Of a stretch of 64,000 nt of DNA, positions 16,851 through 28,900 are shown one piece after another. The position numbers and the translations under genes are program-made. The DNA comes from Tetrahymena thermophila SB210 (lineage: Eukaryota > Ciliophora > Oligohymenophorea > Hymenostomatida > Tetrahymenidae). Below the pieces are notes generated by a model. That model was not told the DNA's origin. It was given only the letters and a program-made list of their open reading frames with translations, and did not search any database. Position 1 is the first letter of the stretch; the number at the start of each line of letters is the position of its first letter. Location of the stretch: NCBI RefSeq assembly GCF_000189635.1, contig NW_002476214.1, forward strand, positions 1-64,000, in the 5' to 3' direction.

Positions 16851-18517
16851 AAATTCTTTTTTAAATTTTAAAAGCATTAATTAATTTATCTCTCAAAATA
16901 CTTTATATTTATAAACTAAAATTTATTCAAATTAAAATAAATAATAAAAATATTTTTTAAATTTGCTATTAAATTCTATTCAAAATTCATTTATATTATT
17001 TAATGTATTCAAATAATACCATATCTATCATACATACATACATACATACATACATACATACATACATACATACATACATACATACATACATACATACATA
17101 AATATATATATATAATAAAAATCATAAAAAATTTTAATTTAATTTTTCCATTAGTAAAATAGCAGCAAATAAAACAAACCAAATATTGATAAATGTCTAT
17201 AAATTAGATGTTTGTTTGTTTTAATTTATTTGTTTACATATTTTATTTCTCATAGGTCAAAATAAAAAGTAATATTTTCAAATTCAATTACTGTTTATAA
17301 CAATTTTATAAATTTATAATAAAATCAAAAATAGTATTTGAAAAGTTGGATTTTTAGAAAATTTAACTCAAAATTAACAGAAAAAAAAAAATTTTTATAA
17401 TTTTTTAACATTTATTATTTTTGAAAAAAAATAATTTAATTTGAATTATTGAAGATAATTTATCTAATAATATGTCTGTAAAATTAGTTTTTTTTATGAA
17501 TTTTAGAACAAAAATTTTTTAATTTGAGGTGAAAATTATTTATTTTTGATTAATTTATACAATTTTCTCAAGAAAAAAAGATAGTTTTCACATTTAATTC
17601 TAATTTAAATGAAATTTTAATGGTCTTAGTAAAAAATAGTGATGCCTCTTCACTAAATTTTAGAAATTTATTTAAATTAAATTTATTTTAATATTTATAC
17701 ACTAATGAGTTACAAGTATAATTTCCAAATATTTCATAGGTATATATATATAATTTTTCTTTAATTAATGTAAAATCAAACATATTAATAATGTAGTTTA
17801 GGCAGTAATAATAGTTATTTTTTGTTTATTTAACTTCCTTTCTTCTTCATTTAAATTTATTTTTAGTATTTAATTTATGCAGATAAATTATTTCTCTGCA
17901 TTCAAAACATTTTATAAAAATAAATTTTAGGATTAATTAAAAAGAGTTAAATTTGATAATATAGTATGTAAGTTAAAATAGACAGAGATAGAGATCAAAT
18001 AATTCAAATATATAAAAAATTATTTAACATTAATCAAAATTTTTCTAATAAAATTATCAAAAATGATAAAGGGAGAATAAATAATTATGTTAATGAATCA
18101 AATTAATTAAAATCAAAAGAATAATTCCTTAAAGAATAAATTATTATTATTTTTTACATAGTTGATATTAAAAATGAGTAAAAATAAATAAAAATAATCA
18201 GTTCAATAACAAACAAAGTTTGTTAACATGAAAGAAGTAGAGCTGATATCATTATATTTTATAACTAAATTTCTTTTTGTTAAATAAAAAGTTTTTAAGT
18301 TCTCCTCTATCATCTCACACGGATATCTAAATTATTTAAATGTAAAATACTCTTTATTTTATTTGATTAATGGCTTTGATAATACAATATTTACTTACAA
18401 ATAAATTATGATTAAAAACTTATTTAATATTTTCAAATCCAAAATATTATTTTTTCTTTACTTTTTTTTACATAATCATTAACAAAATTATATTTTCTGT
18501 AAAAAAGGTACAATCAG
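16851..18517. other. Intergenic with microsatellite
   Basis: AT-rich spacer containing the (CATA)n array at 17029. A weak inverted repeat lies near 17166 and 17213 (aaacaaac and gtttgttt arms). No gene seen. Confidence 0.5.
17029..17101. repeat. (CATA)n microsatellite
   Basis: About 18 perfect CATA/TACA units followed directly by a short (AT)n run. It is likely length-variable between strains and copies. Confidence 0.95.
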
Positions 18518-20025
18518 ATGAGCGATTAGGAAAAATAAGACTTGTGTTCTGGTTTAGCTAAATGCACTAAACTTTCCAAATTAATACTACATTTAAAGTA
18601 AAAATAGTTTGTTTATTTTGAGTAGCTTTTTAAATAACTTAATTCAAACTCATAATAATAATTTCAAAATAAAAATTTATTTCTTTTCTAATTGTTAATT
18701 AACTTTATTTTATCAAATTTTTTTATTAAAAATTAACTTTAAAACTTTCCATTAATTATCTTAATTAGTTAAATTTCTAATAAATAATTTTTCATATCTA
18801 AATATTAATTTTATTTCATAAATTTAAAGTGGATCGATGCTTTGTGATAAGGATTTATAAAATTTAGGCTAAGCTTTATAAAAATGCTCTAATCTGTCAA
18901 CTTTGAGTTTTTCCCAAGAGTATAAATTACTTCTTAATATATAAATTATTTCTTGAATTATTAATAAAATGAGAAATCTTGTTTTATTTAAATATTGCAA
19001 TATTTATCATACATTAATTGCTAATTTTCAAATTAAATTCTTAAATATTTAAAGTTTCAATGAAATTGGTCCATTTGGTGCTTCAATAATCGGTTCTGCA
19101 CTATTAAATTTGAAAAACCTATCAAATTTGACTCTCTTTTTAATGTGAATAGATTAATTTCATTTTTTTTATTTTTTAATTAGAGTTTTTAATTTTTTAT
19201 ATTCATTATCAATCAATTTATTACTTTCTGATTCTCATTAACTCACAAATTTTTCATTTAGATAGCATTATTTCTTTCAAATTATTAATGGATTTATCTT
19301 TAATTCTTTACAATTATTCATAATAAATTAAAAGAGGTAATCAAATTCAAGACGAAGGTATATCAAGTTTAGCTTCTGCTTTATCAAACTGTACTTAATT
19401 TAAGAAATTAGAACTTTGCCTTAAGTATAAATTTTTTATTTTAATTTAAAAATCAAGATACTTATTTCTATTCTCTGTACTCAATAAATATCATGAATTA
19501 CCTACTTATAAAGCTAACATAAAAATTTATTTTTATTATAAACTTTTTTTATCTATATTTTTATCAATTCTATTTATTCGTTTAACAAACTGATAAATTT
19601 ATTTTTCATATAAAAAGTGCTAATTAAATTAATGCATAAGGAGCATCTAGCTTAGGTTAAGCTTTATCTAAATGCATAAATCTTACAACGTTATTAATTG
19701 ATATTTGGTAAATATATTTCTTTATTATTCTTTAATTAAACTATGTGAAGACACCAAAATTAATTAATAAAATTATATTCCTTAAAATTTTATCAATATA
19801 TCTATTTATTTATTCAGACCTATTAACATTAAACAATTTCAAATAAATTCTCTAAAAACTCAAAATACAAAACATGTTTTTCTTATATGAAAAGCAATAA
19901 TAATATTGGAGATTAAGGAATGTCAGATTTAACTACTGTTTTTTCTAATTGTACTAATCTCTCAAATTTGTCACTAAATCTGAAGTAAATTAATTGCTTT
20001 ATACTAATTTTTTTAAAATATGATA

Positions 20026-20056
<31 letters not shown>

Positions 20057-20719
20057 GATTTGTCAATTTTTTAAAAGTATCAATTTATGTTTTGAATTTA
20101 AAAATTAAAAGCAATAATTATATTGTAAATGGATGCATACCTTAATTAGGATCTGCATTAATAAGCTATACCAGTCTCATATCTTTAACTCTTGACCTGA
20201 GGTAAAAAGCGCTCTTTTTCTTTTTATATAAAATCTTATTCTTCATTCTTTTAATATTAATTTAAATATTAGCAAAGTAAAAATACTTAGGAGTTTTCAT
20301 TCTTTTCTAAATTAATTTAATGTATTTATTAGCATATAGTTTGTTCTTCTATATCTAGAAATACCAAACCCTTTTTTAATTTAACTAAAAATATTTCTTA
20401 ATTTAAAAAGATATAATTACATTGGAGTTGAAGCTGGCTTAGAACTTAGTTCCGCATTAGCAAAATGCAAAAATCTCTTAGTTTTGAATCTCTAATTAGA
20501 ACAGTAAATAGATTTTTATGTTTTTACTTAGTATTTGAATTATTCATTTATTATTTAAGAAACTTTGTTTAATAGTTTTTTAAATAAAAGATTGTTTTAA
20601 CTTTCTTTTAATATTAAAAATATATTATCTAAAGAGAGTATAATTATAAGGAAGAATTATTGATCAAAAACAAAATACTCAGGATGAAGAGATTAGTTCA
20701 TTATATTGTCTAAGTTTGA
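18518..20719 (+). CDS. Leucine-rich-repeat protein, one repeat per exon
   Basis: Nine exons: 18518-18597, 18830-18919, 19055-19144, 19335-19424, 19618-19707, 19895-19984, 20112-20201, 20411-20503, 20635-20719. They sum to 798 nt, 265 residues, stop TGA. Exons 2-7 are each exactly 90 nt and exon 8 is 93 nt. All introns are phase 2. Each module encodes one ribonuclease-inhibitor-like LRR of the form N.I...G...L..AL..C.NL..L.L.L, e.g. NQIQDEGISSLASALSNCT. There is no signal peptide, membrane segment or catalytic domain. The protein ends in a short basic tail (NKILRMKRLVHYIVQV). It is probably a protein-interaction solenoid; the ligand is unknown. Intron 6 contains a (TTAC)n tract near 20029-20056. 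Confidence 0.9.
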
Positions 20720-21645
20720 ATAATTTTAATATTTTTAATTGTTATTTGATAACATTTTTAAATAATTAAAAATATTTCACATGTGCAGTTAGTTTATTTT
20801 AAGTATTTAATTAACTTATAATTTTTTTATAAAAAATAATCATTGATTACTAACTAATTAATTTAAATCATAAATTAAAAATGTATAAATACTTTCCAAG
20901 TTGTTTATTGTGTACTTTTTATTTTGTATAGTTAAACAGCATTTTAACTATTGGATTTATATTTCAGTTCAATTTATACTTTTCATGTATTTTAATATAT
21001 TTTAAAAGAATGTATCAGAATTAACAAATTTACTGCAATAATTTTTCTTTTGTTTAAATGCCTTTTTTAGTTTTGAAAATTGGAGATTATTGTTCTAAAA
21101 TAAAAGAATTTTAATTTCAATAGAAAATCATTGAAAAATTAATTTTTACAATTTAGGGCTCAAAATAAATTTATATTTTGGATTAAAAATATAAATTAAC
21201 CTCGTTATACCTAGTTAAGTCTGGTATATTAAAATGAAAAAGTATGTAATTTACCTCAATTTAAAAAATTTGTTAAATTAGAATTAAAATTTTTCGGATA
21301 CTTAAAATTTGAATAATTGAAATAATTTTGTTTTAGAATTTAACTGTTTTATTCATCAAATATTATCTCATTTATTATTAGTTATTGAAAATAATAATCA
21401 AAAACATGAAAAAATAAATGTAGAAGTCATTTGATATTTTTCTGAGAAATTCCACAGTAATTCCAAGATAATTTTTGTTTTTAATATGTGATAGCAATAT
21501 AAGTTTTTTTTATAATTTTATTTGTTGAATAAGATAATATTAATTATATTTCTTAAGAATGAATAATATAAATTTTAAACATTAAATAATTTAAAAAAAA
21601 ATAAAATTAAATCTTGTTTATAGTGATAAATTAATTTTTATATTT
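20720..21645. other. Intergenic, nothing recognised
   Basis: AT-rich spacer between two genes that converge on it (LRR gene on plus, unknown gene on minus). No coding or RNA signal seen. Confidence 0.45.
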
Positions 21646-25947: not shown

Positions 25948-28900
25948 TCAATCTATTTTTATTTAAATAAAATCTTTTAAAATCTAAAAAAGTGGATTGA
26001 TGAATTAAATTTAAAAATATTTTATTTATTTATTTATTTTTTTTACATGTTCATATGTGATTCTCTTTTGCTCGTCAGCCATGTATAATCTATCTTGAAG
26101 TTCTTTAATTTTCTTTTCATATTCTTTGTTTTGATTAAGCAAAAATTAGTTCTGTTTATGCAATAAGGCGTTTTCGTTAATTAATTTTGTTTCTTATGAA
26201 GCCCTCTAAAGTTGGTAATCTCCTTTAACTTCATAAATCTAAAATGTATTCTTTCTCACTTTGCGGAGCACTTTTTCGTCAAAGACATTACTCAAGACAA
26301 AACTGTTCTAATTCATAACTTTCGCTATTTTTGAAATAGCGCTCATTAGGAAATTAGGATTATTAATTCCATAAAAGATAATTGGTTCAAAAATAAAGGG
26401 TTCTTTTTTATGTATTTTTCTAAGTGTAAAGAATTAACCAGAGCAACATACATACTTTTCTTTTATTTCATGCAATTTATCAATATTCTACGAAAAAGGA
26501 TTTTCTTCTTAGAATTTCTCAAAATATTATTTGAACTCATCTTCATTTTGTTGTGAAACTGATGAATTTCTTAATTAATAAAAATATTATGAATTACCTT
26601 AATTAAATAAAATAAATTATTTTATTTACCTCAAACTAATTTTCAACTCTCCAAAATTTTTAATACCCTTCTACTCAATAACCTTAGCAAGTCTGCCAGC
26701 CCCTTCGTCTCCTATATTATTCCAGCTGTAAACAGTGTTAAATAAATTTTTTTGTATATATTAATTTACTTAAGTTCGATGTTGAGCATCTGAATTTTAG
26801 GCATTTTTTCAAGAGCTTATCCTATTTCTTCTGCACCTTAGTCTGTCAAATTGTTATGACTAATAACCATAAATTTAAATAAAATTTATTAGATTTTTAA
26901 AGATATTTTACTAGAGATTTAAGACCAATTTTTTTAAGTTAATTAATTAGCTTAATCCATTCTTGAGGTAAAGCATTCCTTTGTCACAAATCTAACATCC
27001 TCTATAATAAAATTTAGTCAATATAATTCATAAATTGTATTAAGTTTAAAATTACCCTAGATTGAGATCAAGAGAAATCAACTGAGGGTGGTGAGCTATA
27101 GCATCAGAGACTAGTTACAACCCCCTAATTTTAATTTTGCACCACATTACATTTAAGCTAAAATTCTTTAAATTTTGCAAACTTTTGATTCCTGGTATTA
27201 AATTTTCTATTGAATCTGAGTAAATTTTGTTTTTATGGCTTTTTTATTAAAATAATTATTTAAATAAATATTTTTTTTATAAATTAATTAATTAAATTTT
27301 ACTTAATACTTAAGTTAAAGGTCTCCAAGTTATTTAATCTCTTCAGGGTGTTTGACAGAGCTTCAAAGCAATTAGAAAAGTGCAGCATATTCCACCTTTT
27401 AAATTGCAAACAAAGTCAAATTTTTATGCTAATTTTAAAAATATTTTACCCTAAATCAATGTGCAAATACTTCAAATCTTATTAGTTAGCTAAATCAAAA
27501 GATAATTATATCAATGCTGCATCAGTGAGCTAGTTTCCACTATATTCAAATATAAATAAATTTGTTTGTTTTGATTAATATTTATCAACAAACTAATTAA
27601 ATAAACAAGTTACGCTAAGTTGATTTAGAATTTTTCTAAACTTTTAACTTTTGCAATGACTGAACTAATTTCAGTAATTCCAGTATTCATTACATGATTC
27701 CCCTTTAACCCTATGTCTAATATTCTCAAATGCTTTAAATGTTATAATCCTTTTGCTATTTCTGAGGCACCTATTTAACCTATGCAGTTTTCTCTTTATA
27801 ATTATTTATATTATTTAATTTTTAATAACCTTTATAAAAATTTTAATATATATTACGGGTTTTAATCATCTTCTTGGTTACTTAAATGGAAACTTTTTAA
27901 ATTAAGTCTGAGACTAATCAGTTTATTCATACATTAGAGCATCCTTTTAATTTCTTCTCCAACTTTTGGCTGCAAATAATTGTTTCTAATTTTTAAGGTA
28001 ATTCTTTAATTTAAATTATTTCAAATAACAATCACTATTACTTAAAACATAAATCTAGTTAAGTAAGATTCTAACAGAGGGATACGCTTTTTACTATATG
28101 CATAGCTTCACGATTAGTGATTTTATTAGACCTTTAAAATAGAAATAGCAATTCATTAAAAATTAGATTTAGTTATAATTAATTAAATTAATTTACCCAA
28201 AATCTAAAACTAAAATATCCAAATTTTATCCTATTTAATTAAAGCATGTATCGAATTCGCTTAAACCTTCATTTTCTATATTTGTGCGACTTTTTAATTA
28301 AGCAAAAATAAATCAATTTATCTAATTATGCTAAAAGATTTAAGTAGAAATTTACTTTAATATAACTTTCAATTTAATGAGCTAATTAAAATGCTATAAT
28401 CCATGAAAGAGAACTGAAGCGCCTTTATTTTTAATTGGATTATCCCTATTTATAATTTAAAAAATCTCAATATTAGATTTCATAGAGAGCATTAGCATTA
28501 AAGCAATTAATTTCCAAAGTATTTTACCCTAAATCTAATTTTAATGTTAGCAAGTTTTTCATTTTCTATAAGGCCTTGACTAAGTGAGTGCATCCCACAT
28601 ATCCAATCTTATTTTACCTATTTAATAAAATAATATTTTATTCTAAACCAATTAAACTTAATTAATTCTGTAGTAGCTATTGCTGCAATACAATTAAAAC
28701 ATCATATATATATAAGTTCCTTGGCTATTAATGATATAAATGAAGATGATACCTTAGATTCAACTTGAATTCTCTTAGTAGCTCTCCCTTGATATACTCA
28801 ATACCAAAAGAATTGTTATTTATGCCCATTCCCTAAAAGTTAAAGTGCATTTATTCAATTTCTAACTAGCCAAAAGCTTCGAATAAAGCCTACAATCCTT

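Follow-up and report, generated by a model that had tools for sequence, protein, structure and literature searches.

Does a gene in which each leucine-rich repeat (LRR) occupies its own frame-preserving exon still change its repeat number, or does the layout record growth in the past? The question is raised by a locus of Tetrahymena thermophila SB210 for which a first-pass annotation had described six consecutive 90-nt exons, each encoding one LRR and bounded by phase-2 introns, and had called the arrangement an exon-modular solenoid suited to rapid repeat-number change. The window analysed here is the whole 64,000-nt (64-kb) stretch of NW_002476214.1 that contains the locus, and all positions refer to it; its positions 1-240 carry CCCCAA repeats, presumably of the Tetrahymena telomere type, indicating that the window begins at a macronuclear chromosome end. 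Direct parsing with the ciliate code, in which TGA is the sole stop, confirmed the six exons, which span 18830-20201: each is bordered by AG and GT, and each is in phase 2 at its entry and its exit.

A 29-residue LRR profile was seeded with these six exons. Its re-estimation drew solely on 225 hits from 20 other places in the genome (114,919 bases), which are relatives rather than a random sample because they were chosen by DNA similarity to the region of the locus. The re-estimated profile recovered the six seed exons (scores of 12.2-60.6) and added two more, at 18508-18597 (48.3) and 20411-20503 (40.4); no score rose above -4.6 when the 64-kb window was shuffled 100 times with a first-order Markov model. 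The family's leucine-rich consensus, as captured by this profile re-estimated on other loci, is present in all eight LRR exons. What had been annotated as an 80-nt first exon starting at an ATG at 18518 belongs to a longer LRR exon of the canonical 90 nt (18508-18597), of which it forms the 3′ portion, and this brings the run of 90-nt exons to seven. We rejected ATG 18518 as the exon start because both the profile and the AG acceptor place that start at 18508; an internal start at this ATG is possible. The array is also longer than had been proposed, with an eighth LRR exon of 93 nt and two leader exons upstream. The dinucleotide frequencies of the window give a chance of 5e-20 that seven such exons would all be bordered by AG and GT. 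The corrected gene model is as follows.

18174-18236, + strand: exon 1, 63 nt, MSKNKQKQSVQQQTKFVNMKE, ending in phase 0; aligned with the first exons of sibling LRR genes and followed by a conserved GTA donor.
18237-18291, + strand: intron 1, 55 nt, phase 0; an intron of 53-58 nt lies at the same place in 15 sibling matches.
18292-18341, + strand: exon 2, 50 nt, FLSSPLSSHTDIQIIQ, the predicted N-terminal cap ahead of the first LRR, ending in phase 2; homologous to FLNSSLSSHTDIEIRL (L029) and others.
18508-18597, + strand: LRR exon, 90 nt, phase 2/2; profile score 48.3, AG at 18506-18507 and GT at 18598.
18830-18919, + strand: LRR exon, 90 nt, phase 2/2; profile score 20.3.
19055-19144, + strand: LRR exon, 90 nt, phase 2/2; profile score 43.5.
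19335-19424, + strand: LRR exon, 90 nt, phase 2/2; profile score 47.4.
19618-19707, + strand: LRR exon, 90 nt, phase 2/2; profile score 56.4.
19895-19984, + strand: LRR exon, 90 nt, phase 2/2; profile score 60.6.
20112-20201, + strand: LRR exon, 90 nt, phase 2/2; profile score 12.2.
20411-20503, + strand: LRR exon, 93 nt (one extra codon), phase 2/2; profile score 40.4, GT 3 bases past the canonical place.
20635-20719, + strand: putative terminal exon, 85 nt, ...KNKILRMKRLVHYIVQV then TGA; similar to the last exon of the family, with moderate support, and alternative acceptors may exist.

The spliced predicted frame is open over 306 codons in 11 predicted exons (two leader, seven 90-nt LRR, one 93-nt LRR and one terminal), and at the predicted junctions phase-2 introns flank every LRR exon on both sides. 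Two microsatellites lie in the region, (CATA)n at 17030-17099, upstream of the gene, and (TACT)n at 20024-20059, in the intron before exon 20112-20201. Also upstream, 17311-17614 (+ strand) has 70-84% matches at several places in the genome (C327, C417, C17, C36, C169 and others) and is apparently a dispersed non-coding repeat.

The two ends of the model rest on comparison with sibling LRR genes, whose starts the DNA upstream of 18508 resembles. Complete leaders, one per locus, were found in 15 of 31 loci (L009-L039). Their first exon, mostly MIQQ..., measures 36-42 nt, and the second, which ends in phase 2, 50-62 nt; the intron between them has 53-58 nt, with lengths in all three classes modulo 3. 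The search pattern called for an AAAAAG acceptor, 40-79 nt of intron and a first exon whose penultimate residue is E, and had no match in the other 16 of the 31 loci; these include L010, L017, L022 and L024, in which the first exon is recognisable by its peptide, as well as pieces that possibly lack a gene start. The position of the siblings' ATG is not an ATG in the window gene, and an in-frame ATG exists eight codons upstream; we infer that the gene probably starts there, at about 18174, and not at 18518. A single upstream exon, 18174-18341, was rejected: it would enter the LRR exons in the wrong frame, and the sibling alignment has a short phase-0 intron. At the other end, the TGA originally annotated at 20717-20719 fits a terminal exon at 20635-20719, for which the evidence is moderate: in a comparison with the family's last exon (KCLKSKRLVVF; 16 sibling cores), this is the best placement within 20504-21100, with a score of 3.4 (the next scores -8.5), and it ranks 5 of 112,980 scored placements in the window.

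A Pfam scan found no family, LRR included, at the cut-off, and no ROC-COR or NACHT domain was among the 5 families listed for the 306-aa model at E up to 10. Among PDB entries, 13 distinct sequences matched the LRRs at E up to 0.001 (best 7.3e-11; RI-like, NLR and DRC5 LRRs); the phmmer matches include DRC5, an RI-like protein, RanGAP and 5irl/5irm, the last of which we take to be NOD2 structures. The predicted product would be an LRR arc of eight turns, similar in type to ribonuclease inhibitor and DRC5, with a concave beta-sheet through which it would bind another protein. Because the intron cuts inside a strand (within codon 30 of the unit), each 90-nt exon would encode one turn's helical side together with half of each of two adjacent beta-strands, and gain or loss of an exon would add or remove one whole turn in frame. 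To this extent the modular solenoid of the first-pass annotation stands: each of the eight LRR exons, seven of 90 nt and one of 93 nt, could be lost or gained in frame, and array length does vary in the genome.

The 90-nt-exon pattern is already known, since Tetrahymena LRR arrays with 90-bp exons are described by Xiong et al. 2019 (PMC6564038) as groups II and III, of which group III is masked by a consensus repeat sequence (CRS) and group II is not. As far as the available portion of that paper goes, the window gene shares with these groups tandem 90-nt exons, phase-2 introns and one 30-residue LRR per unit, and likewise a variable exon number and introns above the genome background of about 56 bp. 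It departs from them in the length of the introns between its LRR exons, 127-232 nt against a main peak of about 257 in group III and about 56 in group II, and in its one 93-nt exon, unlike the exactly-90-nt family pattern; the same portion does not describe the two-exon leader, the terminal exon or the hypervariable positions discussed below. Taking at least three consecutive LRR exons of exactly 90 nt as the mark of the family, we find seven here, and by exon length, phase and consensus the window gene belongs to the Tetrahymena 90-bp-exon LRR family. The best DNA matches of the region of the locus to other arrays are 72-83% over about 80-180 nt.

Comparable layouts occur in other lineages, as described in the parts of the two papers drawn on here. 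The brown-algal LRR-ROCO genes (Teng et al. 2024, PMC11378527) resemble the window gene in having one LRR per exon, phase 2 and exon shuffling, but have 72-bp exons, 23-residue LRRs and a ROC-COR GTPase, which was not found in the window gene. Human NLR genes (Hoss et al. 2019, PMC6642158) likewise have frame-preserving LRR exons and RI-like LRRs, with the exon border always at one fixed point within the beta-sheet, as here; their exons are 171 bp (two LRRs) in NLRP and hold one 28-aa LRR in most NOD/NLRC genes, and, unlike the window gene, they are animal receptors with further domains. Within Tetrahymena, two loci (L040, C270:468000-472000, and L041, C112:24500-29500, the latter with two blocks) hold LRRs of the same profile at about 90-nt spacing and no introns (compare group I in the available portion of PMC6564038). 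These uninterrupted-repeat paralogues belong to a different branch, and their existence does not count against the exon structure of the window gene.

In this genome, the 33 arrays analysed hold 292 repeat exons, of which 278 have AG and 288 have GT at the canonical place. Array size runs from 4 to 19 repeat exons, arrays with fewer than 4 having been left out and some being cut by the ends of the sampled piece. Neighbouring exons in the first 20 places lie a median of 257 nt apart, as calculated from the 195 of 202 gaps shorter than 600 nt; the intron figures given in the available portion of PMC6564038 are 257 nt for T. thermophila and about 232 for T. malaccensis, so that the gap length points to the former species without proving it. 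A continuous cycle of intron length is unsupported (Spearman 0.20, p 0.27, for intron length against exon identity in the 33 arrays), and only a separate older group of arrays is seen. The window itself holds a second LRR gene on the - strand at 26630-28617, with ten predicted exons (90, 93 and 96 nt) with AG/GT borders, seven short introns of 44-82 nt and two gaps of 502 and 144 nt. The search that found it accepted only phase-2 exons with lengths of 3n, and the gene has the look of an old member of group II.

Several lines of evidence bear on the age of the window gene. Its seven 90-nt exons have a mean identity of 51% (0.51), and none of the 34 arrays compared has a lower value; the median length of its introns is 190 nt. 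Four of the 11 loci chosen for likeness to its upstream part (L029, L031, L032 and L037, of L029-L039) have identities of 0.55-0.63 and median introns of 144-198 nt; the other 29 arrays have exon identities of 0.67-0.91 and median introns of 239-308 nt. The earlier statement that the introns are unrelated to one another in sequence was borne out: the 36 pairs among nine introns gave a mean z of 0.40 (largest 2.6), and those of the similarly old L037 a mean of 0.5, against a mean of 51 and a minimum of 30 for the 36 pairs in the control array L010. When compared with 252 family introns, none of the nine window introns exceeded the largest of 12 shuffles, although one tied, and homology with the introns of other genes was rejected after DNA matches reaching into introns failed a shuffled control. 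The longest identical run between units of the window gene is 14 nt; 28 unit pairs of L010 share 30-89 nt. With runs of no more than 14 nt, exons 51% identical and introns without homology, little identity is left for misaligned crossing-over. Suitability for rapid repeat-number change is a fair description of young family members, whose units are near-identical, but does not appear to fit the window gene.

Despite this divergence, the exons appear to be constrained. Differences from the family consensus fall at codon positions 1/2/3 as 76/70/108 (p 0.007), and differences from the nearest family exons as 58/61/95 (p 0.003), exon 8 being cut to 90 nt for both counts; 304 family exons differ evenly (5.8/5.5/5.7 per exon). 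NG86 dN/dS is 0.48 among the gene's own 90-nt exons and 0.51 against the nearest exons, rough values since within-gene dS is near saturation (1.35); neutral simulations of ten young arrays, based on the mutation spectrum of the introns, gave mean dN/dS of 1.1-1.4. With near-saturated dS as a caveat, the third-position excess and the dN/dS near 0.5 point to purifying selection on the window gene, which looks both old and constrained.

The reading that we favour, with a probability of about 0.85 and given the predicted junctions, is that the locus holds a single member of the Tetrahymena 90-bp-exon LRR family, intact-looking and relatively old, whose array grew by unequal exchange and has since been frozen and under purifying selection. 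Growth would have taken place while the units were still alike; later drift of the introns would have frozen the repeat number, and purifying selection would have preserved the frame and the leucine core. So the modular layout of the window gene would be a record of past growth, and ongoing repeat-number change, if it occurs anywhere, would be found in young arrays elsewhere in the genome.

The gene might instead be a decaying pseudogene, a truncated array with a broken first exon and a frame open only by chance. Its exon identity at the bottom of the 34 arrays, the loss of the family's ATG position, the low profile scores of exons 18830-18919 (20.3) and 20112-20201 (12.2) and a terminal exon only moderately like the family's are all consistent with this, but each of the 11 predicted exons is open with AG/GT borders, the sole length change among the LRR exons is in frame (+3), and the excess of third-position differences together with a dN/dS of about 0.5 argues against it, so that we consider decay unlikely. 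The opposite possibility, that the array at this locus is still gaining and losing exons, as the first-pass annotation read it, is permitted by the symmetric phase-2 90-nt exons and agrees with the range of exon number in the family, from few to many both in the genome arrays and in the available portion of PMC6564038; the unrelated introns, short identical runs and low exon identity documented above make it very improbable. Modularity might instead serve mainly alternative splicing, in which skipped exons yield variant receptors; such a role has been proposed for the ROCO genes of brown algae and the NLR genes of humans. Every LRR exon is indeed frame-preserving, and the available parts of PMC11378527 and PMC6642158 supply the precedent, but no claim of exon skipping was seen in the corresponding part of PMC6564038, and this role has, in our estimate, only a small chance of being the main one.

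In the young arrays, variation is concentrated in a few codons. Units, each an exon plus the following intron (200-330 nt), were compared within arrays, with the introns as a neutral yardstick. Eight of 31 arrays have introns that differ by less than 0.12 on average. In these eight, the difference per nucleotide, relative to that of the introns, is 3.2- to 8.7-fold at five positions of the 30-codon unit, namely 26, 28, 30 (the codon at the junction), 1 and 3; it is 0.2- to 1.4-fold at structural positions and 0.8- to 3.4-fold at other positions. After correction for composition (intron mutation spectrum), and with L050 added, the five positions stand at 3.0 to 6.3 times expectation in nine of nine young arrays and the other non-structural positions at 0.5 to 2.5 times. 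We take the five to be x3, x5, x7, x8 and x10 of LxxLxLxxNxL in canonical numbering, on the concave strand. In 35 of 35 arrays they exceed both the introns and the remaining non-structural positions. Variation is also seen outside the set, at codons 6 and 7 (0.62 and 0.56). The young arrays with hypervariable concave codons are L009, L010, L013, L016, L024, L026, L042, L046, L050 and L052. In the window gene, the amino-acid difference is 0.90 at the five positions, 0.77 at other non-structural and 0.40 at structural positions, the introns and silent sites being saturated.

The choice of positions calls for some care. A first set (24, 26, 28, 1 and 3) gave p 0.053 in the young arrays and was replaced by the present one, whose permutation p of 0.0004 is not independent because the set was chosen after the first result had been seen. 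With the positions fixed, six of six later arrays went in the same direction (4.8, 4.0, 1.8, 1.8, 6.6 and 1.7 times the intron value, uncorrected for composition); these six are the independent part, although only three are young, one also counts among the nine, and L051 and L052 share their contigs with L009 and L016. Measured on aligned columns (an ungapped count of up to 0.34 reflected indel shifts), divergence over the 20 bases at either end of the intron is 0.00-0.16 in the nine young arrays, and intron ends are close to or below the intron middle in seven of nine, L046 and L013 having first 20 bases above it; there is therefore no general mutation hot spot at splice sites. NG86 dN/dS above 1 (1.1-1.9 in the ten lowest-dS arrays) was dropped as proof of positive selection, since the neutral simulations already have means of 1.1-1.4 and reached the observed value in 13-53% of runs in each of the ten arrays.

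The excess is present even between units that are otherwise almost identical. In five pairs from four arrays with near-identical introns (mean difference 0.007), 28% of the nucleotides in the five codons differ, against 2.6% in codons elsewhere that keep their amino acid, and the five-codon difference stays flat at 0.37-0.39 from an intron difference of 0.03 to 0.13. In L051 and L052, where no unit pair is as close as a mean intron difference of 0.007, eight pairs at 0.035 gave 0.37 and a single pair at 0.114 only 0.07. Units 2376 and 3039 of L016 differ by one substitution in the 250-base following intron and by 3 substitutions plus 16 gap columns in the preceding introns; codons 1, 26 and 28 are changed at 3, 2 and 3 bases, and there are two silent changes elsewhere in the exon.

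The simplest reading of the five-codon excess would be strong diversifying selection. Very old alleles kept in a homogenised background might produce something similar, but the pattern of silent variation across codons speaks rather against them: it is low at codons 2, 4 and 27, which adjoin the hypervariable ones (0.05, 0.00 and 0.02), and higher at codons 11, 22 and 29 (0.24, 0.19 and 0.18). Gene conversion limited to the introns and framework may also contribute, as may mutation focused on the hypervariable codons, for which the silent data are mixed (0.36 at codon 1, in 44 pairs, and 0.07, 0.00, 0.05 and 0.09 at codons 3, 26, 28 and 30).

Under diversifying selection for recognition, five outward-facing concave residues would be replaced at several times the neutral rate with the framework nearly fixed, even between units with almost identical 250-nt introns. 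The phase-2 intron lies inside the hypervariable strip, so that exon exchange would recombine half-strands and remake the junction residue. The five-position excess supports, without proving, a recognition role for the LRR family, and the location of young-array variation mainly at residues expected to touch a partner hints at a diversifying recognition system. From these comparisons we lean towards the view that the 90-nt-exon LRR genes form a germline-encoded, actively diversifying recognition repertoire. The positively selected concave sites reported for ROCO genes in the part of PMC11378527 used here parallel the expected concave place of the Tetrahymena hypervariable codons. For the Tetrahymena genes, the available portion of PMC6564038 gives Ka/Ks below 1 between genes, with purifying selection as the only kind named; its main text uses none of the terms positive selection, diversifying, hypervariable, concave and ligand, and no paper on positive selection in Tetrahymena LRRs was among the matches listed in the open-licence PMC literature. 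Concave-strand hypervariability in young arrays may thus be new.

The exon pattern itself is published, and the window gene adds to it one closely annotated old member and a corrected gene model. The hypervariable concave strip of the youngest arrays names the residues that would be expected to bind ligands, and the first arrays in which this could be tested.
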